Source: Eubacteriales Family XIII. Incertae Sedis bacterium (GTDB lineage Bacteria > Bacillota > Clostridia > Peptostreptococcales > Anaerovoracaceae). From it: DNA of 44,878 nucleotides. Below, piece by piece: positions 38,731 to 39,076 of this stretch (its first letter is position 1; the number at the start of each line of letters is the position of its first letter). Made by a program: the position numbers and the translations under genes. The stretch lies in the NCBI GenBank assembly GCA_031266025.1, contig JAISBV010000148.1, forward strand, positions 1 to 44,878, written 5' to 3'. The notes below the pieces were generated by a model. It made no database searches. It had not been told where the DNA came from and saw nothing but the letters and a program-made list of their open reading frames with translations.

Positions 38731-38767
38731 TATCATAAATGCTTTGCTATATTATGCATTTATGATA
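38731..38767. repeat. 12-bp perfect inverted repeat TATCATAAATGC-13nt-GCATTTATGATA downstream of ackA
   Basis: Read directly; overlaps a possible promoter. Confidence 0.7.
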
Positions 38768-38776
38768 TACTTAAAT

Positions 38777-38876
38777 ACAGAAAGGCGCTTTTCACGTCGT
38801 GTTTGCGCGTTGCGTTTCTGCCTGTAGGCGGATGCGCGCGGCCCGACGCGGTGAATGGCGCCGTTTGTTTTTTTTG
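38777..38876 (+). ncRNA. Candidate structured small RNA or transcriptional attenuator ending in a U-tract
   Basis: Nested arms GGCGC/GCGCC, TTCAC/GTGAA, GTCG/CGAC, GCGCG/CGCGC, GCC-tgta-GGC, then GTTTGTTTTTTTT; possible promoter TTGCTA-16-TATACT just upstream. Confidence 0.45.
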
Positions 38877-38885
38877 TACTTGCAA

Positions 38886-39057
38886 CTCGGTACACTGTAA
38901 CCCCTAAAAGTTGTCAGTAATCGGCGAGGATTTTTTTCGCCGGGCAAGGCGGAGGGTTCTGTTGATACCGGGCAGTATCAACAGGTTCTTTTCAACGCAG
39001 CCCGACGGAAAAAAGACCGTCGATCAGTAAAGCTTTAGGGGTTACAGGGTACTCAGT
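38886..39057. mobile_element. Candidate MITE-like long palindromic element (~172 bp), non-coding
   Basis: Imperfect terminal inverted repeats CTCGGTACACTGTAACCCCTAAAAG / CTTTAGGGGTTACAGGGTACTCAG; central perfect 10-bp hairpin CTGTTGATAC-CGGGCA-GTATCAACAG at 38959-38984; intermediate blocks also mutually complementary. Confidence 0.6.
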
Positions 39058-39076
39058 AGGGGAAGGGATAACTGCT

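Follow-up and report, generated by a model that had tools for sequence, protein, structure and literature searches.

The intergenic DNA between ackA and the MCP gene in the window, a stretch of 44,878 nucleotides from a Family XIII-type Clostridia MAG, holds a 163-bp element (positions 38890 to 39052, + strand, centre 38971), for which MITE is the right class. With high probability it is a MITE with a shared and exchanged core. A fold-back core of ~90 bp is common to elements with unrelated terminal inverted repeats, and elements with different ends that share it were found from termite-gut Clostridia to soil Proteobacteria. Bacterial MITEs have been regarded, family by family, as degenerate derivatives of a single insertion sequence. 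The new point, absent from the first-pass annotation, is a cross-phylum core that is independent of the ends, with middles and ends that seem to be exchanged like cassettes. The overall reading, a MITE with an exchangeable core whose transcript would fold into a hairpin at the MCP gene and may be processed by RNase III, is well favored.

Limits, parts, and fold of the element

The limits of the element were drawn from its arms, its fold, its multicopy occurrence, and the comparison with sister copies. The outer sequence reads GTACACTGTAACCCC...GGGGTTACAGGGTAC and is symmetric over 38890 to 39052, and the + orientation was defined as that in which GCAAGGCG precedes CAACGCAGC. From the sequence and the comparison of delimited copies, the left terminal inverted repeat is GTACACTGTAACCCCTAAAAG (38890 to 38910, + strand) and the right one, as reverse complement, is GTACCCTGTAACCCCTAAAG (39033 to 39052, - strand). 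Inside these, alignment A2 and its covariation marked the left outer arm of the core, TTTTTTTCGCCGGGC (38931 to 38945, + strand), and the right outer arm, GCCCGACGGAAAAAAGAC (39000 to 39017, + strand). The conserved non-complementary internal loop was recognized by motif and in arm-selected matches, with GCAAGGCG on the left side (38944 to 38951, + strand) and CAACGCAGC on the right (38993 to 39001, + strand). Between them, the fold and the sister-element comparison placed a central hairpin, CTGTTGATAC-CGGGCA-GTATCAACAG (38959 to 38984, + strand), in whose place other hairpins stand in sister elements. No open reading frame of at least 90 aa lies inside the 163 bp, in keeping with the size definition of a MITE (<500 bp, no transposase gene).

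The first-pass annotation had described a palindrome of nearly full length, and this was confirmed, with all quoted arms found in place. The RNA fold of 38870 to 39076 reached -87.9 kcal/mol compared to -56.0 ± 4.2 for 200 dinucleotide shuffles (z = -7.6), none of which folded as well. The palindrome is imperfect: one G is bulged, and the two arms differ consistently at the non-complementary loop, which reads GCAAGGCG on one side and CAACGCAGC on the other. With a covariance model of the core, the + strand scored higher (95.5 bits versus 29.8 bits on the - strand). The suggested switch between one long hairpin and a multi-hairpin form was rejected on energy and on the poor conservation of the local hairpins: taken separately, the local folds amounted to -48.6 kcal/mol in sum, compared to -83.3 kcal/mol for the entire element. 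In some copies, L003 and L005 among them, the left local hairpin is weak (-3.0 to -3.5).

Copies, empty sites, and mobility

The earlier suggestion of a MITE was borne out by three findings: the element is multicopy, sister copies carry target duplications, and two congeners have syntenic empty sites. A BLAST search of the host genome (2.61 Mb, 162 contigs, 82% complete) returned 11 matches, not all independent, as some are fragments of one copy or the same copy read in reverse. The covariance model gave at least 14, some at contig ends where one copy may have been counted twice; full-length copies number about a dozen or more. The ends of host contigs C15, C80, C128, C137, and C139 coincide with element copies, so the elements seem to break the assembly and to make copy numbers taken from MAGs unreliable. 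Such elements also occur in the related genomes G003, G004, and G010, and all 11 elements delimited in detail in the host and in G010 are 157 to 163 bp long. Two host copies (L009) lie ~1.2 kb apart (G000:C98:5592 and 6940), one of them with the central part deleted, the centre being missing from G000:C98:6940-7017.

In congeners G001 and G002, the orthologous MCP gene follows ackA with no element between, and model R1 found no match in the ackA-MCP loci of either; the intergenic DNA left of the insertion site is too diverged there for a base-exact empty site. Target duplications flank sister copies, namely, in one end class, TAA/TAA (L004, L021, and L014), TTA/TTA (L003), and TCA/TCA (L116), and in the class with CTAG ends the form is CTA|..|TAG (L031 and L035), with TA within CTAG. 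No clean target duplication was found on the window copy (flanks ctcg|...|tcag).

MITEs move by a DDE transposase acting on their ends, as established for the class. The search of the host genome, 82% complete, returned no PF13358 match, and none of its three PF01609 loci had a convincing match to the element ends. The cognate transposase may lie in the missing part of the genome or may have been lost.

A riboswitch-like structured RNA leader acting in cis on the MCP gene, repeated by chance, would account for the position before the MCP start and for a strong conserved fold with covariation. It is nevertheless highly improbable. Other copies, including those on other host contigs, sit next to unrelated genes, and such elements occur in both orientations; the congeners keep the ackA-MCP order without the element; and the element has terminal inverted repeats, with target duplications on its sister copies. 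Moreover, Rfam gave no match for the element or its core at gathering or relaxed thresholds. The genomic distribution of the copies refuted a gene-specific cis leader.

Exchange of cores and ends

The independence of middles and ends was evident within one genome, G010. Elements L021 and L035 have 86-bp cores that are 98% identical, and their ends are 58 and 53% identical, compared to a chance level for random 34-mers with a mean of 47% and a 95th percentile of 55%. Conversely, L021 and L014 share ends (100 and 97% identical) over cores of 72% identity. Host elements L003, L004, and L005 have AAATAA-type ends, which are 45 to 59% identical to those of the window element; their cores are 78 to 81% identical to the core of the window element. 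The same core under unrelated ends indicates that cores and ends recombined.

A rival explanation would be an ordinary MITE of a single family, derived by internal deletion of one insertion sequence, in which the likeness of the cores reflects convergence on stable hairpins. Its anatomy and copy number are indeed ordinary, and the centre of the window element is without similarity to that of the Neisseria element CREE (40% identity, with 4447 of 5000 shuffles as good). This explanation is at odds with nearly identical cores that have unrelated ends within a single genome, and with the non-complementary loop that Clostridia and Noviherbaspirillum share in matches chosen without it. A mismatch would not be kept if the likeness were convergence on a hairpin, and hundreds of copies versus zero for a reversed pattern do not fit either. 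A single-family origin is thus very unlikely, and the exchanged core is the preferred reading.

Three further arrangements were observed. A tandem array of the core, with 2.1 copies of a 104-bp unit and no ends between, lies at L063:1522-1734, from which it follows that cores can multiply without ends. In G010, an element of the CTAG class (L031/L052, G010:C221:19094-19225) sits exactly at the middle of a longer palindrome, gccgcggccctcgctgcggcacg...cgtgccgcagcgagggccgcggc. The left arm of L018 (G003:C239) is interrupted by a palindromic insert of another kind, roughly 75 bp or longer.

Conserved loop and covariation of the arms

The internal loop GCAAGGCG/CAACGCnGC is kept, and the flanking arms vary with compensation. 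A pattern of the outer arms only, run over a collection of 85,462 species, returned 30 DNA stretches from Family XIII, Gracilibacteraceae, Oscillospiraceae, other Clostridia MAGs, and three Noviherbaspirillum genomes. Among these arm-selected matches, comprising 22 distinct sequences, the left arm is followed by AAGG in 16, GAGG in 4, and TAGG in 1; the sole exception, L070, is a near-symmetric copy read in reverse. The right arm is mostly preceded by CAACGCA. When matches were selected by the loop instead (GCAAGGCG...CAACGCnGC), the arms outside it were complementary, with a median of -13.6 kcal/mol versus -5.5 kcal/mol for left and right arms taken from different elements.

In alignment A2, changes on both sides occurred in 14 of 26 pairs. 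The covariation score, for which the first-pass annotation had proposed a check, was 0.292 versus 0.125 in shuffled alignments, with none of 500 shuffles as good, and it fell to 0.04 to 0.10 when partners were slid by 1 to 3 columns; kinship among the sequences and DNA-level homogenization of inverted repeats may partly cause this covariation. That the loop remains non-complementary while the arms around it remain complementary suggests selection on one folded strand of either RNA or DNA, and these patterns speak for an old, structured core. Of the conserved structured RNA that had been suggested, the conserved structure is supported by covariation and by the kept internal loop; these tests do not tell RNA and DNA apart.

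The orientation of the elements relative to neighboring genes is mixed (12 against and 6 with, by a crude test on open reading frames), with no clear bias, which does not favor function as an RNA of one strand. With such mixed orientation, a role of the core at the level of DNA has to be taken seriously as a rival explanation. The core could act as a DNA hairpin or cruciform bound by a host or transposition protein, aiding synapsis or the tolerance of long palindromes, and be kept across many transposase classes for that reason. In bacteria, long perfect palindromes are unstable, a problem that a fixed mismatch would ease; the core is kept whatever the end type or gene orientation, and only few elements have lost it (L009). 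Relief of instability alone, however, needs no fixed loop sequence, and no protein is known to bind it. We regard a DNA role as rather unlikely, though far more credible than a leader or a single-family origin.

MCP locus and proposed mechanism

The window element stops just before GGGAAGGGAT (39060 to 39069, + strand), a ribosome-binding-like stretch of the MCP gene that lies outside the element, recognized from the sequence and the congener loci, where it is conserved in G001 and G002 as GGGAAAGGGATGAC before the ATG. The distance from the element end to the MCP ATG (39077) is 24 bp and not 19 bp as first given. It is plausible that the element forms part of the MCP 5' untranslated region. 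The sole promoter-like match upstream of the element, at 38744 to 38771, is near chance level. A terminator-like hairpin with a T-rich run, likewise near chance level, follows ackA at 38848 to 38864, between this match and the element. Beside the promoter-like match and upstream of the element, a perfect 12-bp inverted repeat, TATCATAAATGC-N13-GCATTTATGATA, occupies 38731 to 38767, and a similar inverted repeat, ATACCATAAATAT...GTATTTATGGTAT, was seen in the same intergenic region of G002. The repeat at 38731 to 38767 is a possible operator of the MCP gene.

In the mechanism that we propose for the MITE with an exchangeable core, a DDE transposase supplied in trans would recognize the ~20-bp terminal inverted repeats of the non-autonomous element, the interior of which is an exchangeable fold-back core made of outer arms, conserved internal loop, and variable central hairpin. 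Such an element landed just upstream of the MCP ribosome-binding region. If the locus is transcribed through, the transcript would form a long imperfect hairpin near the MCP start. RNase III could cut or bind this hairpin, as it does in Neisseria CREE, and thereby alter the amount of MCP mRNA, with the ribosome-binding stretch at 39060 to 39069 left free. Processing of the element transcript by RNase III, taken by itself, is put forward tentatively, at a little below an even chance.

Spread across genomes

The loop motif occurs in 20 to 330 copies per genome in some Bacillota and Pseudomonadota, and the reversed-pattern control gave about 0. The counts of motif versus control were 84 versus 0 in G010 and 33 versus 0 in Noviherbaspirillum aerium; six Pseudomonadota genomes had 331, 58, 51, 39, 33, and 31 matches, with 0 for the reversed pattern. 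Further Bacillota with repeated copies included G146, G530, G607, G425, G716, G697, and others. The 331 matches belong to a 2.0-Mb Pseudomonadota genome (G835, L222), where they amount to about one every 6 kb, and a copy sampled from it has the ends GTAACTACTCAG. Lone matches in high-GC genomes are probably mostly chance, as control counts are not far below them, and for this reason only genomes with repeated matches were used. BLAST of the consensus core against plasmids and phages found no match.

Comparison with known systems

REP/REPIN and other palindromes tagged by GTAG or CGTC are repeated extragenic sequences of 20 to 40 bp with a tagged unpaired end (PMC3733652). The window element, in contrast, has 163 bp and inverted ends, and its sister copies bear target duplications; membership in this group was rejected on size and ends.

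The MITEs of Noviherbaspirillum with TACCAATCCC ends (L045, L046, L129, and L138) resemble the window element in their T-run/CG arms, internal loop, and similar size, but differ in unrelated ends, 3-bp TNA target duplications, and another central hairpin. With IS630-type MITEs (CTA|G...C|TAG), the likeness lies in the ends, those of the window element being 66 to 69% identical to a CTAG-class element of G010, where the 95th percentile for random sequences is 55%. A TA duplication within CTAG is the hallmark of IS630-type insertion, and the window copy, flanked by ctcg and tcag, does not have it. In G298, a contig with an IS630-like transposase starts with CTAGTGTAGTGTCGTGTTGATATTT, which is identical at 21 of 25 positions to the end of a CTAG-class MITE of G146.

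A close parallel is the Correia element (CREE/NEMIS) of Neisseria, also a MITE, of 104 to 157 bp, with inverted ends, an A/T stretch, a core, and a central hairpin. The CREE sequence used as query matched N. gonorrhoeae exactly (107/107). The window element has the loop motif CAAGGCG...CAACGC in a fold-back core, as does CREE, in which one compensatory pair is AC..GT instead of GC..GC, giving an A-T pair where other elements have G-C. The ends differ, TATAGTGGATTAA-type in CREE and GTACMCTGTAACCCC in the window element, and the CREE centre, GACAGTAC..GTACGGCAAGG, is the one to which the centre of the window element showed no similarity; the link is therefore one of loop and architecture, not of centre, and model R1 did not pick up CREE itself. 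The CREE centre did align with cores of the Pseudomonadota Noviherbaspirillum aerium, G1079, and G1099, with none of 5000 shuffles as good. Moreover, the CREE core alone (positions 27 to 79) matched Cupriavidus metallidurans at 85%, in an element that has the CREE centre and the ends AGAGGCGCTATCAAAATGA instead of TATAGTGGATTAA. Common descent of the shared cores with CREE cores is somewhat favored. IHF has been proposed to act in long CREE. For CREE-bearing transcripts, cleavage or binding by RNase III has been shown (PMC2649163; PMC10969869). A literature search that covered few subscription papers, run on strings of the core and on elements of Correia type beyond Neisseria, returned nothing relevant and no later report in which CREE cores were linked to elements with different ends.

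Across families and phyla, it is the middle of the element that is conserved and not its ends, which are exchanged, a warning for annotation pipelines that sort MITEs by ends alone. Such a core would tie the well-studied, supposedly Neisseria-only Correia repeats to a large unrecognized group, and it would let the reason why these palindromes spread be tested with one motif. More speculatively, and with the balance somewhat against it, a single superfamily of fold-back cores with the loop 5'-GCAAGGCG/5'-CAACGCnGC might have spread over Bacillota and Pseudomonadota by swapping the ends of several unrelated transposase families, with Neisseria CREE as one branch and with a loop to which a host factor of wide distribution (RNase III or a protein that recognizes DNA structure) would bind, making insertions tolerable or mobile.
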